DNA of 64,000 nt from Actinoalloteichus caeruleus DSM 43889. Its GTDB lineage: Bacteria > Actinomycetota > Actinomycetes > Mycobacteriales > Pseudonocardiaceae. The position numbers and the translations under genes were made by a program. The stretch spans positions 2,356,001-2,420,000 of the forward strand of contig NZ_AUBJ02000001.1 of NCBI RefSeq assembly GCF_000429185.2. Reading direction: 5' to 3'. Position 1 is the stretch's first letter, and the number at the start of each line of letters is the position of its first letter. Below are positions 2,888 through 9,607 of this stretch, piece by piece. The notes beneath the pieces were generated by a model, which was given only the letters and a program-made list of their open reading frames with translations, searched no databases and had not been told where the DNA came from.

Positions 2888-3685
2888 AGTCCCATCCTCG
2901 ACCATCACCCACCCGCGCGGAACCCGGTCCCACCGGCGCCGGAGGCGCGTGGGCACTGGAGTGGGCGGCCGTGCCGAACCGACCAGGTAGCCATCCGCGA
3001 ACCGTGGTGAGGCGCGCGGGCACGCATGCCGTCATCGTCCTGTGCCCGGTCGGCGAGGCCGGTGATGAACCGTTGCTCGGCCTCAAGTGGATGACCGAGT
3101 ACCTGCGCGAGGAGCTCGCCGAGACGCCCGTCACGGGGATACGTCGTGTAGGTGAGCGGTCAGCGCGGACGAACGAGTTCCGGCTCGCGGGAGAACGCGC
3201 GAGCCGGGACGTCGGAAGTCCTCGGGGTCCTTCAGTGGCGAGCGGGCAACGGAGACGACTGGGCAGGGCGGCTTGTCGCTCATCCATCGGGCCGAGCGGT
3301 CTTGCTGCTGCGCTGCGCAGGGTGCCTTCAGCGCAGCACGAGACCGTCAGGACTCACCCGTGAGCTAAGCGGCCCTGCTCGGCTGCGAGGCGGCCGATGA
3401 TGTCATCGTCCTCCCGGCAGGTGTCGACGAACCTCACGCCTCGTCGGGGCACAGGCTCGCGCCGCCTGTTGGCCGCCGATTCAGCCCCACGCCCCTCACC
3501 CTCACCGGCTGAGCGCCTGGCTGATCGCCGGGCATGAACTCCTCGGTGAAGGTGGATCACCGGCGTTGAGCTCGGGCGGTTCTGGTGGGGCTCCTCCTGG
3601 TGGGACGTGTTGCGCCATGCCGTGCGGCAGTGGGGGTGGGCGGGAGGTGCCCGCCGGCCACCCCATCGGCCGGCGGGCTGACAGG
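2888..3685. other. About 800 bases with no convincing gene; possible decayed coding DNA
   Basis: No ORF here resembles a family I recognise. Plus-strand frames give protein-like but short stretches: around 3020-3130 (AVIVLCPVGEAGDEPLLGL) and, in another frame, around 3210-3290 (GVLQWRAGNGDDWAGRLVAH). Neither continues into a credible domain. This pattern would fit an eroded gene with frameshifts, but chance ORFs in GC-rich DNA are equally possible. The segment is bounded by the lanthipeptide terminator and the end of the DUF397 operon. Confidence 0.4.
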
Positions 3686-3883
3686 TCAGAGGCGGTCTGC
3701 CTTGACGGCGGTGATGAAGCTGTCGAAGGCCTGCCGGCTGACGACAAGAGTGCCACCGGCGCGGTTCTTCGTGTCCCGGATACCGGCGAGACCAGGTGCG
3801 CCACCGACCTCGACGCAGCTGTTCATGCCGTTGGTGCTCCGGGTGGACTTCCGCCAGTTGGTCAGAGTGGTACTCGCGTCCAT
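3686..3883 (-). CDS. DUF397 domain protein, distal copy
   Basis: The 65-residue protein contains the DUF397 pattern: WRKSTRS near residue 10, NSCVEVG near 20, then GIRDTKN and a C-terminal AFDSFITAVK. The family function is not firmly established; members usually sit beside an XRE/DUF5753 regulator, as here, and several such pairs affect development or antibiotic production in Streptomyces (whiJ/abaA-like loci). The start ATG follows a strong GAGGAGG. It is clearly a duplicate of the copy at 4149-4349, with long stretches of near-identical DNA, and is separated from it by 265 bases without a gene. Confidence 0.88.
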   Translation of the reverse strand: MDASTTLTNWRKSTRSTNGMNSCVEVGGAPGLAGIRDTKNRAGGTLVVSRQAFDSFITAVKADRL

Positions 3884-4148
3884 CTGCTACCTCCTCGAGG
3901 AGTGGAAACCGTTCTGGCTGGGGAACTTGAGGTGGACCCCACCGACTTCCCGCTTGGCCGGAGAGAGGGAGGTGCTCCTAGCCTGCCGGCTACTGGATGG
4001 ATGTGGTATCCGTCGACTGGTACTTCTCTACCCCTGTTCGACGTAGTGCGGTGGTCAGGTTCGTCGGTGTGGTGGTGTCGCAGATGCGGCTGACTATGGG
4101 GTCTGAGATAGTTGCCCGCCGCCCGATGGGGTGCCGGCGGGCTCCTGG

Positions 4149-4349
4149 TCAGAGGCGATCTGCCTTGATCGCCGTGACGAAGCTGCTGAAGGCATGGCGG
4201 GTGACGACAAGAGTGCCACCGGCACGATTCTTCGTGTCGCGGATGCCAACGAGACCAGGTGCGCTACCAATCTCCACGCAGTTGTTCGCGCCGTTGCTGC
4301 TTCTTCTTGGCTTCCTCCACCTGCGGAGGATGGTGGCTAGCTCGCTCAT
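4149..4349 (-). CDS. DUF397 domain protein, proximal copy
   Basis: This 66-residue protein has the same architecture as its neighbour: WRKPRRSSNG, NNCVEIG, GIRDTKN, AFSSFVTAIK. It starts 3 bases after the stop of the XRE gene, with the Shine-Dalgarno AAGGAG lying inside the end of that gene, so the two are translationally linked. By analogy with XRE-DUF397 pairs it probably binds or modulates the adjacent DNA-binding protein; a toxin-antitoxin-like relation has been proposed for such pairs. That role is inference. Confidence 0.88.
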   Translation of the reverse strand: MSELATILRRWRKPRRSSNGANNCVEIGSAPGLVGIRDTKNRAGGTLVVTRHAFSSFVTAIKADRL

Positions 4350-4352
4350 CTC

Positions 4353-5198
4353 TTACTCCTTGATCTCGTCCCGGACCTGAAGCAGCAGTGCGTGGCTGTC
4401 CTCGACGTCCAGTGAGGCGCTGGCAACACGTTCGAAGGCTGCGGTGAATCTCTCCAGATACGGCGGGCCGTCGTACCACTCGCCGTCCACCAGCGTCTCC
4501 GTCAGCGCAAAGGTGGCACACGGTTCCCCTACGTCCAGCAACATGAAGGAGGTGCCAAGCGCTGCGTACTCACCGGCTACGAAGGGAAGGACCTGTAGCG
4601 TGACGTGGTCCGCCTCGGCGAACTCGCTGAGAGTACGCAATTGTTCCCGCATTACCTTCGGTCCGCCGACCAACCGGCGAAGTGCCGCCTCTCCTAGAAG
4701 GAGATGCACGTTCGGTGCGTCTGGTCCTGTGATGCGCTGTTGACGCGTCAGCCGAGCCGTTACCGCAGCCTCTACTCCGTCGCGTGCGGGTACCAGCGCT
4801 GTGGACAAGATCGCTCGCGCATAGCTGGCAGTTTGGATGAAGCCTGGTATCAACTCTTCCTGGAACACACGTACCTGCGTTGCTGCTGCTTCGACAGCTA
4901 CGTACTCGAGCGCCCAGCCTGCGACGGGCGGGGTGACCATGTCTCGCCTACGGGCTTCGGAGGCCAGGTTCAGGACACGTTCCCGCTCAGCCGGCGACAG
5001 CTGGAACAGCTCTGACAGGCGTTCTGCCTCGGCCATTGCGATCTTGCGGTGCCCTGACTCGACGAAGCCGACCTTGCGTTGGTACCAGCCGAGCGCCTTG
5101 GCGACATCGTTCGGCTCCAGCCCCGCCCGCTCACGGTGGGCGCGGAGAGCCTGACCCAACAGCAACCTGTACGCGAGGGGCGGCGGGTTGTTGCGCAT
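4353..5198 (-). CDS. XRE-family helix-turn-helix regulator with DUF5753 domain
   Basis: The 281-residue protein has an N-terminal lambda-repressor-like HTH (residues about 12-70: LGQALRAHRERAGL, then KALGWYQRKVGFVESGHRKI). A DUF5753 domain follows, with its typical start after the HTH (EELIPGFIQTASYARAIL) and a late EWYDGPPYLERF region. The start at 5198 was chosen because GGAGAA lies 9 bases upstream; a longer frame to 5267 has no ribosome site. It heads an operon with a DUF397 gene and probably a second copy. A palindrome at 5343-5353 upstream is a candidate autoregulatory site. WhiJ-like regulators of this type influence aerial development, which fits the neighbouring SapB-like locus. Confidence 0.9.
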   Translation of the reverse strand: MRNNPPPLAYRLLLGQALRAHRERAGLEPNDVAKALGWYQRKVGFVESGHRKIAMAEAERLSELFQLSPAERERVLNLASEARRRDMVTPPVAGWALEYVAVEAAATQVRVFQEELIPGFIQTASYARAILSTALVPARDGVEAAVTARLTRQQRITGPDAPNVHLLLGEAALRRLVGGPKVMREQLRTLSEFAEADHVTLQVLPFVAGEYAALGTSFMLLDVGEPCATFALTETLVDGEWYDGPPYLERFTAAFERVASASLDVEDSHALLLQVRDEIKE

Positions 5199-5342
5199 CC
5201 CCGTATCTTCTCCATTCCTTTGGAGCGGTGGTACCTGCGACGGCGGGCGCGGAAGACCCAGTTTCACCCGGTTGGGCTACGCTCCGCAACGGGTTTGACC
5301 TTGTACGCGTCGAGCGAGAACCGTACTCTCATAGTAAGTCGA

Positions 5343-5353
5343 GTCACAGTGAC
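5343..5353. promoter_or_regulatory. Palindrome in the XRE/cassette divergent region
   Basis: GTCAC-A-GTGAC is a perfect 11-base palindrome located 145 bases upstream of the XRE start. A TACTAT box lies close by on the minus strand. It is a reasonable operator candidate for the XRE protein; this is inference only. Confidence 0.35.
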
Positions 5354-5417
5354 GCTCGCGGCGTGGTTACTAGGTCTTGCTGCGGTGTGTCCTCCCTCGT
5401 CAGCCGGAGAAGAAACA

Positions 5418-5455
5418 GAGGGGCCGGGCCAACTGTCCAGGCCGCCCGGCCCCTC
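5418..5455 (+). promoter_or_regulatory. Hairpin in the leader of the small-gene cassette
   Basis: A 12-bp perfect stem (GAGGGGCCGGGC / GCCCGGCCCCTC) with a 14-base loop ends 22 bases before the first start codon of the cassette. It could be an attenuator, a terminator for upstream transcription, or an mRNA-stabilising leader structure. Confidence 0.5.
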
Positions 5456-5477
5456 CTTGAAGAGAGGAACCGACGCT

Positions 5478-5933
5478 ATGACCGTCGATCCCATCCCGGT
5501 AGCCATGCTACTGGCCGTAGCCGTCCTGCTCGCCGAGGTGTACCGCCGGCACCGAGGGCGCCCTGACCAGCCACTCCGTGCCGTGGTCACCGTCAGCGGC
5601 GTGGTCTTCCTCAGCGGCCCACCCCCCGGCGATGGCATCCCCCGGTCCACCTCGGACACCCCGTGGTCGACCCCGTCACCCCCGAGTCCCGCTGGTTCCT
5701 GGCACACCACCCGAACCCGGCCGGGACCCGCGACCGCCCACGCCAGCACCCACCCCAGCACCGACGCCGAGTGGGGCGGCGACGAGCAGGACACCGGCCG
5801 CCATCACTGGCGCCCCACCCCCACCACCCTCCCGCCTGCGGTCGGGAATCCCGACCCGGGGTGGGTCACCGTCCTCACCGGACACCTCCCCCTCCCGGCC
5901 CCATCCCGACACCCCCGGGGGCGGGTCGCGTGA
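5478..5933 (+). CDS. Unknown protein with N-terminal membrane segment, first gene of the cassette
   Basis: I do not recognise this 151-residue protein. It starts with a single hydrophobic helix (PVAMLLAVAVLLAEVY, residues 7-22) followed by RRHRGR. The N-terminus would therefore be membrane-anchored, with the positive end in the cytoplasm. The rest is Pro/Thr/Ser/His-rich and probably disordered. Third codon positions are mostly G/C, supporting real coding in this frame. GAGAGGAA precedes the ATG. Its stop overlaps the next start by four bases (GTGA). Confidence 0.6.
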   Translation: MTVDPIPVAMLLAVAVLLAEVYRRHRGRPDQPLRAVVTVSGVVFLSGPPPGDGIPRSTSDTPWSTPSPPSPAGSWHTTRTRPGPATAHASTHPSTDAEWGGDEQDTGRHHWRPTPTTLPPAVGNPDPGWVTVLTGHLPLPAPSRHPRGRVA

Positions 5934-6193
5934 TCCTGTCCGCAGCCCTCGGAGCCTGGGCCGCCCTGACCCTGCTGTGGGCCGTGGAATGGGCCGACCG
6001 TGTCCTGCTTCCCCCGCTCCGCGGAACCATCCGGCTGCGTCGGGTCCGGCGCACCACCCGTCAGGCTCTGGTCGCCGCCGGGCATCCCTGGCCCCGCCCT
6101 CGTCGCCCCCGCCGCAGGCCACCCTCCGCGCCTCGGCCGAGACCGGTCGGTGCGGTCGTCATCCCGAGGGATGACGTCCCCACCGACTCCTGA
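5930..6193 (+). CDS. Small unknown membrane protein (87 aa)
   Basis: The GTG start overlaps the upstream stop codon (GTGA), implying translational coupling. A hydrophobic stretch near the N-terminus (AALGAWAALTLLWAVEW, residues about 5-21) is followed by a strongly basic Arg/Pro-rich tail ending in VIPRDDVPTDS. The layout suggests a bitopic protein with a cytoplasmic basic tail. I know no family for it. Confidence 0.6.
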   Translation: MILSAALGAWAALTLLWAVEWADRVLLPPLRGTIRLRRVRRTTRQALVAAGHPWPRPRRPRRRPPSAPRPRPVGAVVIPRDDVPTDS

Positions 6194-6290
6194 TCGCAGC
6201 CGCTCACCCCCGGTGCCTCCCCTTCGGGCCGTGTCCTCCCGCCTCCCCGTGTGTGGAATCGCGCGGCCTGTCGGGGGTGGTGGCTGCCCG

Positions 6291-6355
6291 GTCGCCCGGT
6301 GGGTCGAACCGGGACACCCCGGCCCCCCTGTTGTTCCCGGTTCCCACCGGGCGAC
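6291..6355. repeat. Long imperfect hairpin (21 paired bases) between cassette genes
   Basis: GTCGCCCGGTGGG (6291-6303) pairs exactly with CCCACCGGGCGAC (6343-6355). AACCGGGA (6307-6314) pairs with TCCCGGTT (6335-6342). A 3-base bulge and a 20-base loop interrupt the structure. It sits in the only sizeable gap (about 225 bases) inside the cassette and could split it into two transcripts or set their ratio. Confidence 0.75.
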
Positions 6356-6419
6356 CACCCCATCCCTGTCGCGCACCGCCCGCGCGGCGCACCCCTGCTG
6401 ACCGAAGGACCCCTCACTC

Positions 6420-6578
6420 GTGATCGTCCTCGTCCTCGTCGCCGTCGTCGTCTCGGTCCTCACCGGCTGCTTAGCCCTGAGCGTCGTGGTGGGCCTGGTC
6501 GCCTCGTTCCGCTCGGCCGTCGAGGACCACCCGCTGTCCCGGTCGCTGACCACCCTGTTCCCCGGACCCACCCCGTGA
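6420..6578 (+). CDS. Very small membrane protein (52 aa) with a TTA codon
   Basis: The GTG-initiated ORF begins with an almost uninterrupted Val/Leu hydrophobic run (residues 1-30) and then a short polar tail (SFRSAVEDHPLSRSL). It is a plausible single-pass peptide. Codon 18 (6471-6473) is TTA, the rare leucine codon whose use in Streptomyces ties translation to the bldA tRNA and thus to development. No clear Shine-Dalgarno precedes the start (only GAAGGACC, rather far away), so the start is less certain than the frame. Confidence 0.5.
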   Translation: MIVLVLVAVVVSVLTGCLALSVVVGLVASFRSAVEDHPLSRSLTTLFPGPTP

Positions 6579-6662
6579 CCCCGGCTCCCGAGGACACCGA
6601 GACGGTGTCGCCGCTGGTGGTCCGGTCGCGGCGGGTCCGCCCCTACCTGCCGGAGGACGACC

Positions 6663-7016
6663 ATGACCGACACCGCGACCCGGACCGCGCTACGAGCGGT
6701 GCCGGAACTGGCCGGGATCTACGCGTTGACCCGCCGAGGCTGGCAGTGGACCTCGTTGTCCCCGGGCACCGGGACGCTGGTCGGCTGGTTCGCCTGGTCT
6801 GGCGGGCCGTTCGTGGACTGGTGCGTGATCCGGGGCTACGGGGAGGTCGAGGCCGTCCGGGTCCGCGACGGCGACGGGCTGGTCTGGCAGCGCTGCGGAT
6901 CGGTCGGCGTGGTCGCCGCTGAGCTGCGGGACCTTCCCCCACCGCACGCCCCAGGTGCGCCGCGCCTGCTGACAGGACGCCGGTGGCGACCACCCGGCGC
7001 ACTGCGCCTGCGGTAA
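6663..7016 (+). CDS. Unknown cytoplasmic protein (117 aa)
   Basis: The ATG start follows CCGGAGGACGACC. The protein has a compact, Trp-rich globular region (residues about 10-85: RRGWQWTSLSPGTGTLVGWFAWSG, then DWCVIRGYGEVEAVRVRDGDGLVWQRCG), with no membrane segment or signal peptide. The alternating hydrophobic pattern suggests a small beta-rich fold. I cannot assign a family. The 85 bases before it are also open in the frame that starts GTG at 6575 and overlaps the previous stop, hinting at a lost small gene. Confidence 0.6.
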   Translation: MTDTATRTALRAVPELAGIYALTRRGWQWTSLSPGTGTLVGWFAWSGGPFVDWCVIRGYGEVEAVRVRDGDGLVWQRCGSVGVVAAELRDLPPPHAPGAPRLLTGRRWRPPGALRLR

Positions 7017-7030
7017 CCACCCTCCCCCAA

Positions 7031-7070
7031 TTCCTTTTCCTTTTCCTTCTCCTTCTCCTTCTCCTTCTCC
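7031..7070. repeat. Hexanucleotide pyrimidine repeat in front of a cassette gene
   Basis: More than six tandem units of TTCCTT/CTCCTT form a 40-base pure pyrimidine tract ending 19 bases before the GTG at 7090. Slippage here would change the spacing between promoter or upstream gene and this start without altering a reading frame. The opposite strand is a pure GGAGAA-type purine repeat. Confidence 0.9.
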
Positions 7071-7089
7071 TGCGGACAGGAAGAACTCC

Positions 7090-7419
7090 GTGTACTACGT
7101 CATCAACCGCTGTCTGGAGCCGATCAACGCCCGCTCCTATCTCGGCCCGTTCCCCCGCTACCCGCAGGCGTTGCGGGCCTGGGGGTTCCGGGGCCAGGTC
7201 GTCCTGGCCGCCCTGGGCACCGCCGCGATGCGTTCGGAGGTCAGCACGGCGGGCCGCCTGTACTACCTGCTGCCCCGTGACCCCAGTCCTGGTCCCACCG
7301 GTGTTCCCGAGCTGGCACGGGGGCCGCTGCGGTGTCGGTACACCGCCGAGGCCCAGGCCGGTGAGGGGTTCCTCCTCGCGTCCCAGTTGCTGCCCGACCC
7401 CGTGCTCAGCGGCGCGTGA
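7090..7419 (+). CDS. Unknown cytoplasmic protein (109 aa)
   Basis: It starts GTG after ACAGGAAG. The sequence opens MYYVINRCLEPINARSYLGPFPRYPQALRAW and looks like a small soluble domain with no hydrophobic helix. GC3 is high and consistent with real coding. Its last codon overlaps the next start by four bases (GTGA at 7416-7419), so it is coupled to the downstream gene. I find no recognised domain. Confidence 0.6.
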   Translation: MYYVINRCLEPINARSYLGPFPRYPQALRAWGFRGQVVLAALGTAAMRSEVSTAGRLYYLLPRDPSPGPTGVPELARGPLRCRYTAEAQAGEGFLLASQLLPDPVLSGA

Positions 7420-8060
7420 CCACCATGAACCAGACACCAGAACCCACCGGTCACGCCGCTCTGTCGTTGGCGGGGGCCGCCCCACCGGCTGGGCCCTACC
7501 CGGCGCGGACACCCCTCGCTGAGGAACCGACCTCGCCCGCCGAGGCAACGACCGGGGCGGGCAGTGCCGGGGTGCGCGACGGGGACGACATCACCGGAGC
7601 CTGGCTCACCCGATGCGCGGTGCGCACCCCGATCGTGGGCCGGCTCTACGGGCATGTCGATGTGAACACCGGCCACGGGCCTCCTGTCGGACCGGGCCTG
7701 CGTTACCTGGTAGGGACCTTCGACCACCGTCGCCTCGTGCTGTGCGGGGCGGTGGTGCGGCACTGCGCCGAGTTCGACGAGCTCACCACGGCCACGATCG
7801 CCGAGATGCGGGACCTGGCCCGGCGGTGGCGGCTGGGGGAGTTCCTGCCGCCACCGACCACGATGAAACGCCGCCGCCGACGCGTCCCGGCGTGGGCGCG
7901 GGTGCGGTTCTGGTCCTGGGAGCCCGAGGTCGAGCTGGGCATCAGCTACGCGGGTCGGGTCAGTTTCAAACACGGCGACTGGGCCCGCATCGGCCCACAT
8001 CCGTCCAGCGTCCTCCCCATCGCGGACAGCAGTGGGGAGGACCGCAGCTACCCGACGTGA
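7416..8060 (+). CDS. Unknown protein (214 aa), last gene of the cassette
   Basis: The coupled GTG start is at 7416; an internal ATG lies three codons later. An N-terminal Pro/Ala/Thr-rich linker of about 55 residues leads into a conserved-looking region (DDITGAWLTRCAVRTPIVGRL, then RYLVGTFDHRRLVLCGAVVRHC, then ELTTATIAEMRDLARRWRLGEF). A basic patch MKRRRRR follows near residue 150, and then a Trp-rich end. The basic patch could bind nucleic acid, but no known motif is visible. No other gene follows on this strand until the pectate lyase. Confidence 0.62.
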   Translation: MTTMNQTPEPTGHAALSLAGAAPPAGPYPARTPLAEEPTSPAEATTGAGSAGVRDGDDITGAWLTRCAVRTPIVGRLYGHVDVNTGHGPPVGPGLRYLVGTFDHRRLVLCGAVVRHCAEFDELTTATIAEMRDLARRWRLGEFLPPPTTMKRRRRRVPAWARVRFWSWEPEVELGISYAGRVSFKHGDWARIGPHPSSVLPIADSSGEDRSYPT

Positions 8061-8611: not shown

Positions 8612-9607
8612 ATGAGGAAACGACTCGTCGGACGCCGGCTCGTCGCCGCCGGCGCGCTGTCCGCGCTCGCCGTGGGCTCGGTCCTGGGCGGCTCGGTGCT
8701 GGCGGCCGCCGAACCCTCCGAGCCCTGGTCAGCGCCGTACCAGGACGACCGGCCGATCGGCTGGGCCAGCGTTGACGAGAACGGCCAGAACGGCACCACC
8801 GGCGGGGCCGGCGGCGACACGGTGACCGCTTCCAACGCCGACCAGTTCCTCGACTACATCTCGCGGGACGAACCGCTGGTCATCGAGGTCGACGGCACGA
8901 TCCAGCTGTCCGGGATGGAACGGGTCAGCTCGGACAAGACGATCATCGGCGTCGGCACCAACGGCCACATCACCGGCGGCGGGCTCAAGCTGCGCTCGGT
9001 GAGCAACATCATCATCCGCAACCTGCACTTCTCCGACGCCAACGACGACTCGATCGACATGGAGGAGGGCACCCACCACGTCTGGGTCGACCACAACAGC
9101 TTCACCAACGCCAACGACGGCGCCGTCGACATCAAGCGTGAGTCCGACTTCATCACCGTCTCGTGGAACCGGGTCTACGAGCACGACAAGAGCATGATCC
9201 TGGGCCACTCCGACAACCACACCGCCGACATCGGGCACCTGCGCGTCACCTACCACCACAACTACTTCGACGGCAGCGACACCCGGCACCCGCGTGTGCG
9301 GTTCGGTGACCAGGTCCACGTGTTCAACAACTACTACCGGGCCAACAAGGAGTACGGGGTCGCCTCCACGATGAACGCGGGCGTCATCGTCGAGGGCAAC
9401 TACTTCGAGGACGTCGACACCCCCACCGAGGTCGGCTACGGCAGCTCCAGCGACGGCCGCATCGTCGCCAGGAACAACGTCCTCGACAACTCGGGTGAGA
9501 TCGCGACGGCGGGCAGCGTCGACGACCCGCCCTACTCCTACACCGTCGACAACCCGCAGAACATCCCGTCGCTGGTCGGCGGCGGCGCCGGGTACGGCAA
9601 CCTCTGA
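8612..9607 (+). CDS. pel: Secreted pectate lyase, polysaccharide lyase family 1
   Basis: The 331-residue enzyme cleaves de-esterified pectin (polygalacturonate) by calcium-dependent beta-elimination outside the cell. A Sec-type signal peptide is clear (MRKR, then a hydrophobic core, with probable cleavage after VLAAA). Family PL1 parallel beta-helix motifs follow in order: VWVDHNSF, DGAVDIKR with the catalytic-site Asp, SWNRVYEHDKSMILGHSD, TYHHNYFDGSDTRHPRVRFG with the catalytic Arg region, and VHVFNNYY. The ATG has a purine-rich AAGAGAGAGGC upstream. It is a single-gene unit with its own promoter and terminator, and implies growth on plant material. Confidence 0.97.
   Translation: MRKRLVGRRLVAAGALSALAVGSVLGGSVLAAAEPSEPWSAPYQDDRPIGWASVDENGQNGTTGGAGGDTVTASNADQFLDYISRDEPLVIEVDGTIQLSGMERVSSDKTIIGVGTNGHITGGGLKLRSVSNIIIRNLHFSDANDDSIDMEEGTHHVWVDHNSFTNANDGAVDIKRESDFITVSWNRVYEHDKSMILGHSDNHTADIGHLRVTYHHNYFDGSDTRHPRVRFGDQVHVFNNYYRANKEYGVASTMNAGVIVEGNYFEDVDTPTEVGYGSSSDGRIVARNNVLDNSGEIATAGSVDDPPYSYTVDNPQNIPSLVGGGAGYGNL

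Follow-up and report, generated by a model that had tools for sequence, protein, structure and literature searches.

A multicopy cassette of six small genes beside a WhiJ/BldB-type regulatory locus in Actinoalloteichus caeruleus, a probable genus-specific output operon

Despite decades of work on BldB and WhiJ, targets are known for very few of their many paralogous loci, namely abaA and iosA in one species. What, then, is controlled by an XRE/DUF397 locus that stands beside six small genes? This question is raised by a 64,000-nucleotide stretch of Actinoalloteichus caeruleus DSM 43889 (hereafter the window), which is C1:2356001-2420000 of a complete 6.04-Mb chromosome; protein and DNA matches place the genome in the same genus as A. 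spitiensis. Six open reading frames (ORFs) on the forward strand, designated A to F, are divergent from a gene for a WhiJ-like XRE/DUF5753 regulator and two genes for BldB-like DUF397 proteins on the reverse strand. The type of locus is already known, and what is undescribed is the output operon. The whole is read here, as a fairly probable interpretation, as a WhiJ/BldB-type regulatory locus whose genus-specific output operon A-F occupies the position of abaA or iosA.

Gene A (5478-5933, 151 residues) encodes an N-terminal hydrophobic stretch followed by Pro-rich low-complexity sequence and is most conserved in its first 14 codons. Gene B (5930-6193, 87 residues), found in four loci, combines one hydrophobic segment with a basic tail, and gene C (6420-6578, 52 residues) specifies a small single-span membrane protein. 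The products of D (6663-7016, 117 residues, pI 10.9), E (7090-7419, 109 residues) and F (7416-8060, 214 residues) are predicted to be soluble; D belongs to an unannotated Pseudonocardiaceae family, and E and F are restricted to the genus. The sequence-only reading had described six same-direction frames of these lengths with GTGA overlaps, three membrane and three soluble proteins, an RRRRR patch and a divergent XRE/DUF397 operon, and these points were borne out: the overlaps at 5930 (A-B) and 7416 (E-F) are present in the sequence, a hydrophobic N-terminal stretch occurs once each in A, B and C and in none of D, E and F, the patch lies in the KRRRRRVP motif of F, which is invariant as is RLYGHVD, and Pfam identifies the regulator (HTH_31 and DUF5753) and both DUF397 genes. 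It had also held that none of the six resembles a family it knew. Indeed, A-F gave no convincing match to Pfam, NCBIfam, PADLOC or PHROG families, nor to any known toxin, antitoxin or defence protein in Pfam, NCBIfam or PADLOC, and the HATPase_c domain of AbaA is absent from their Pfam matches; the idea of six unknown families, however, gives way to one Pseudonocardiaceae-wide family (D), two genus-restricted proteins (E and F) and three small membrane or leader genes (A-C).

At 73% guanine + cytosine (GC) the length of an ORF is weak evidence of translation, because chance ORFs are common and longer antisense ORFs exist, so that comparison between copies was used instead. When the window was compared with the other copies, 10 of the 11 indels that fall inside the ORFs had a length divisible by three, as did only 2 of the 8 in spacers (Fisher P=0.006). 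Among the six possible frames, the stated one received the highest codon score in every ORF from A to F. The ratio of nonsynonymous to synonymous substitution (dN/dS) is 0.35-0.43 for B, 0.17-0.36 for D, 0.27-0.61 for E and 0.38-0.47 for F. These ratios (0.17-0.6 overall), together with in-frame indels, are the grounds on which B, D, E and F are taken as translated. The ratio is not informative on translation for A (0.73-1.0) or for C (0.9-1.8, on few changes); their indels preserve the frame, including a 12-nt in-frame insertion in one copy of C. A sceptic could hold that this is decaying duplicated DNA in which only D-F, or even D, are genic and A-C with the hairpins are leader and spacer. 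The dN/dS of A near 1, the unsupportive ratio of C and the decayed, broken gene A of the copy L027 speak for such a view, but the indels of A and C keep the frame, the own frame of each is the best of six, and the start region and hairpin are conserved, so decay is regarded as very improbable. Judged by this comparison, the six ORFs are real, translated genes.

The order of these genes recurs. Five cassette loci are present in the one chromosome: the window copy and that at 4274464-4277013 are complete and 88% identical over 2.6 kb; the copy at 2181884-2184589 (L026) contains A', B, C, D, a MarR-like gene replacing E, and F; that at 5139245-5140858 contains A', B and D; and at 4249015-4249818 there is a remnant with truncated E and F adjoining a truncated XRE gene. 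The MarR-like gene occupies the E position at L026:6298-6666, and in the truncated copy at L025:5768-6268 the 3' part of XRE joins the 3' part of E after a deletion, an arrangement kept in both species. A. spitiensis, the assembly of which is fragmented, contains corresponding cassette pieces. It had been suggested that recurrence of the order beside XRE/DUF397 genes would support a system and that a lack of homologues with conserved order would speak against one. Such a lack was not encountered, since the cassette is multicopy and has orthologous pieces in A. spitiensis, and the order recurs at the five loci here and at several in A. spitiensis, with D homologues standing by XRE/DUF5753 genes in other genera. 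At 5/5 cassette loci the cassette is divergent from the XRE/DUF397 locus, and at 5/5 the third gene is adjacent to XRE, the position that it has in WhiJ/BldB loci. By this comparison, recurrent order and a fixed position and orientation relative to XRE/DUF397 are properties of the cassette.

The regulators are far less alike than the two 88% identical cassettes: at the four intact loci the XREs share only 22-39% identity with each other. BLAST homology between the copies starts at the first base of a leader hairpin (5418/5419) and stops near the 3' end of F, and in the whole chromosome no loci but the four with a retained 5' end have this leader at a significant score. Because homology starts there and the leader is confined to those loci, the hairpin forms the left border of a module joined to different regulators; the module boundary is thus placed at the hairpin on comparative grounds. 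Exchange on the regulator side is suggested by the orthologous A. spitiensis locus, where synonymous divergence (dS) reaches 1.7 for XRE but lies at 0.11-0.33 for the adjacent DUF397 genes and at 0.29-0.42 for B, D and E; the XRE allele has therefore probably been replaced there and the rest retained.

The leader hairpin itself (5418-5455, forward strand) consists of perfectly paired 12-bp arms around a loop of 14 nt, immediately precedes the ribosome-binding site of gene A and is kept in all copies with a 5' end, including those of A. spitiensis. One copy has a compensatory C-G/U-A pair, which is only suggestive of RNA structure, with 174 of 500 shuffles scoring as high. In the B-C spacer an inverted repeat (6290-6356, forward strand) has 14-nt perfect arms at 6290-6303 and 6343-6356 that hardly differ among four copies, in contrast to the loop, which varies in sequence and length. 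An Rfam search returned no match. Of the regulatory elements proposed earlier, the leader hairpin has thus proved conserved and two others have not. The internal hairpin, described as 21 bp, has arms of 20 nt (6146-6165 and 6168-6187) with 90% complementarity and is not kept in the copies, and the TCCTTC hexanucleotide repeat (7032-7071, forward strand, 6.7 units) is likewise not kept in them, in a D-E spacer that is only 48-59% identical between them. Both were rejected as conserved elements, and for lack of conservation they are probably not regulatory.

The C-D spacer is unusually conserved at 98.8% identity. There a candidate extra small frame (6575..6662, forward strand) begins with a GTG at 6575 that overlaps the stop of C in a GTGA, and stays open into D in the window copy, to 6922. 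It contains a motif R-[VI]-R-P-[YH]-[LV], whose relative frame is the same in most copies, and also in cassettes of a second type at other XRE/DUF397 loci, where the end of the frame overlaps the next gene in an ATGA. This frame could represent a seventh small gene or, alternatively, a DNA or RNA element.

To which known systems can such a locus be compared? The XRE gene (4353-5198, reverse strand; DUF5753, PF19054, 2.1e-48; HTH_31, PF13560, 2e-10) has a possible alternative GTG start upstream at 5267 and scores 1.3e-46 with the NCBIfam Sco1979-family model, under the cut-off of that model. Directly downstream of it are DUF397 gene a (4149-4349, reverse strand; PF04149, E=5.8e-18) and gene b (3686-3883, reverse strand; PF04149, E=2.4e-18; dN/dS 0.15 versus A. 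spitiensis), among 38 DUF397 matches in the genome. The closest likeness is the iosA-whiJ9-bldB9 locus of S. venezuelae, in which a small gene with an uninformative sequence shares an intergenic region with a WhiJ-type XRE gene that is followed by a BldB-type DUF397 gene (PMC10294661). There iosA is activated by WhiJ9, which binds between iosA and whiJ9 in the intergenic region, the loss of BldB raises iosA about 750-fold, BldB does not bind DNA but hetero-oligomerises with BldB9, and overexpression of iosA and abaA6 reproduces the bldB phenotype (PMC10294661). Both loci encode a basic soluble product (IosA, 15 kDa and pI 10.3; D, 117 residues and pI 10.9). However, the locus described here has six genes, membrane proteins, a structured leader and several copies, whereas the iosA mRNA is leaderless (PMC10294661); no WhiJ9-type repeats were found here, and the likeness is one of position and description. 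The whiJ/SCO4542/abaA-like clusters of S. coelicolor are similar in their large paralogous sets of XRE and DUF397 genes with a third gene and in their locus-specific diversification, but there the third component is the anti-sigma-like AbaA (HATPase_c), which this cassette lacks, and all three protein types are predicted to be cytoplasmic, unlike the membrane proteins A-C (PMC4255298). XRE and DUF397 genes also make up the Xre-DUF397 pairs predicted to be toxin-antitoxin (TA) systems (Makarova et al. 2009, PMC2701414), a prediction outside which the additional divergent operon falls.

Switching of A-F by XRE/DUF397 is proposed because the cassette occupies the place that matches iosA. We infer that the XRE/DUF5753 protein would bind the divergent intergenic region (5199-5417), the presumed site of promoters and operator, and switch transcription of A-F, and that the BldB-like DUF397 proteins would tune it through protein contact. 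The stable hairpin would open the transcript just 5' of the ribosome-binding site and probably governs how stable the mRNA is or how it is translated. Within the operon, A-B and E-F would be translationally coupled. The three small membrane proteins most likely cooperate with soluble D, E and F as an effector or modulator that is associated with the membrane and acts on growth and development, like IosA and AbaA in Streptomyces. Furthermore, duplication and recombination of cassettes as modules among XRE/DUF397 loci would bring one cassette under different XRE specificities.

Several points weigh against this interpretation. No operator was recognised in the window intergenic region, which has no direct repeats above shuffles and no clear palindrome; it contains no CGNNCTCAAC and no WhiJ9-type operator above shuffles, and no clear promoter was seen in 5199-5417. 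The copies are not homologous in this region, and among the intergenic regions checked only that of the A. spitiensis copy L034 has repeats above shuffles. The cassette proteins are likened to IosA by position and description, and none of them matches the HATPase_c domain of AbaA in Pfam. Moreover, recombination among homologous DUF397 genes, and not function, could in part account for where the cassette lies. Finally, only about one quarter of the D homologues outside the genus adjoin XRE/DUF5753, so that D may have a wider role.

The distribution of D deserves consideration for this reason. A four-sequence profile (E<=0.01) detected D relatives in 141 of 297 Pseudonocardiaceae genomes and 37 of 46 genera, and a broader 46-sequence profile (E<=1e-5) gave no match in a sample of 395 genomes from elsewhere in the phylum. 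Pfam has no model for this family. In the same 297 genomes the profiles of E and F gave background-level matches only, the GTDB scan with F returned A. spitiensis only, and a single weak F match beyond the genus (G092) has 29% identity and 3 stops. Among 39 non-redundant D members outside the genus, 9 have a divergent upstream XRE/DUF5753 gene within 1.5 kb and another 2 have such a gene differently arranged, while at 3-4.5 kb there are 0 (orientation bias, P=1e-4). Further D-family genes lie outside the cassette in this genome (G000 C1:5019158, 2112087, 1929742, 5351355 and 3653139), that at C1:2112087 having a same-strand DUF397 gene as its direct neighbour. The AlphaFold2 model of D is confident (pLDDT 86.7) and has the order helix-helix-five strands-helix, whereas the AlphaFold model of F (pLDDT 49.5) is unusable. 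Neither protein gave anything significant against PDB sequence profiles, and for the D model the best Foldseek E was 0.36 and VIA-align Z was <6 with mixed unrelated folds, so no convincing structural relative was found and no fold is assigned.

These results bear on the view that the cassette is a toxin-antitoxin or conflict module, with A-C as membrane toxins, D, E and F as immunity proteins or antitoxins and XRE/DUF397 as the regulator. Small hydrophobic proteins, a patchy multicopy distribution and exchanged XRE alleles would suit it, as would the earlier proposal of XRE/DUF397 as a TA pair (PMC2701414), and the D model weakly aligns to CDI/Rhs immunity proteins (7zhm_C, Z 5.2; 6cp9_H, Z 4.8). 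These alignments, however, are in the noise range, level with unrelated folds; PADLOC recognises none of A-F, D is present without A-C in other genera, and in S. coelicolor DUF397 could be overexpressed without toxicity for 14 pairs (PMC10364602). A module of this kind is therefore considered unlikely.

Another view is that the cassette is a remnant or cargo of a mobile element (an actinomycete integrative and conjugative element (AICE), plasmid or prophage) and that its link to XRE/DUF397 is shared cargo only. The multicopy, modular state with one truncated copy (L025), the GC of the XRE/DUF397 region (64%, versus 73% in the cassette) and the phage-like genes seen by eye near some D homologues (L108, L123) point in this direction. 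On the other hand, D and F have no plasmid match by tblastn, F has no IMG/VR relative, the homology blocks stop at the cassette end, and inspection by eye of 13-14 kb of gene calls around the copies, to the flanks of which family models were not applied, revealed no integrase, replication or transfer gene. A mobile origin is accordingly rated as quite unlikely, and both it and the conflict module are less likely than the output operon. As to the surroundings, the 64% GC at 3600-5200 also differs from the 73% of the window, and directly 3' of the cassette lies a secreted pectate-lyase-like gene (by eye, 8612-9607), in a flank 92% identical in A. spitiensis.

The genome has about twenty XRE/DUF397 loci, and several others carry small-protein genes in the same divergent position. 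A second type of cassette, coding for two soluble small proteins, diverges from other XRE/DUF397 genes at L230:7600-9193, L236:4542-5700 and, more distantly related, L231:4691-5800; it shares with the window cassette sequence and the RRVRPYL-like frame directly upstream of its last gene and of D, respectively. Because other loci hold small-protein genes in the same place, the site upstream of XRE looks like a socket for differing small-protein operons. By extension, and only tentatively, Pseudonocardiaceae XRE/DUF397 loci might be sockets for interchangeable polymorphic effector cassettes of small membrane and soluble proteins, of at least two types here, which are exchanged between regulators of different specificity and form a diversifying developmental or self/non-self switch, D founding an uncharacterised family without clear structural relative.

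The sequence-only reading had proposed an undescribed system. What stands of it is a coupled cassette of recurrent order linked to a WhiJ/BldB-type regulator; rather than free-standing, it is most likely a variable output operon of the known whiJ-bldB-abaA/iosA type of locus. With its conserved leader and its different XREs, this multicopy cassette is a natural experiment in which the same outputs face different regulators. It names an unannotated protein family, D, in most of the sampled genera of one large actinobacterial family, and it makes the question of what XRE/DUF397 pairs switch testable outside Streptomyces.

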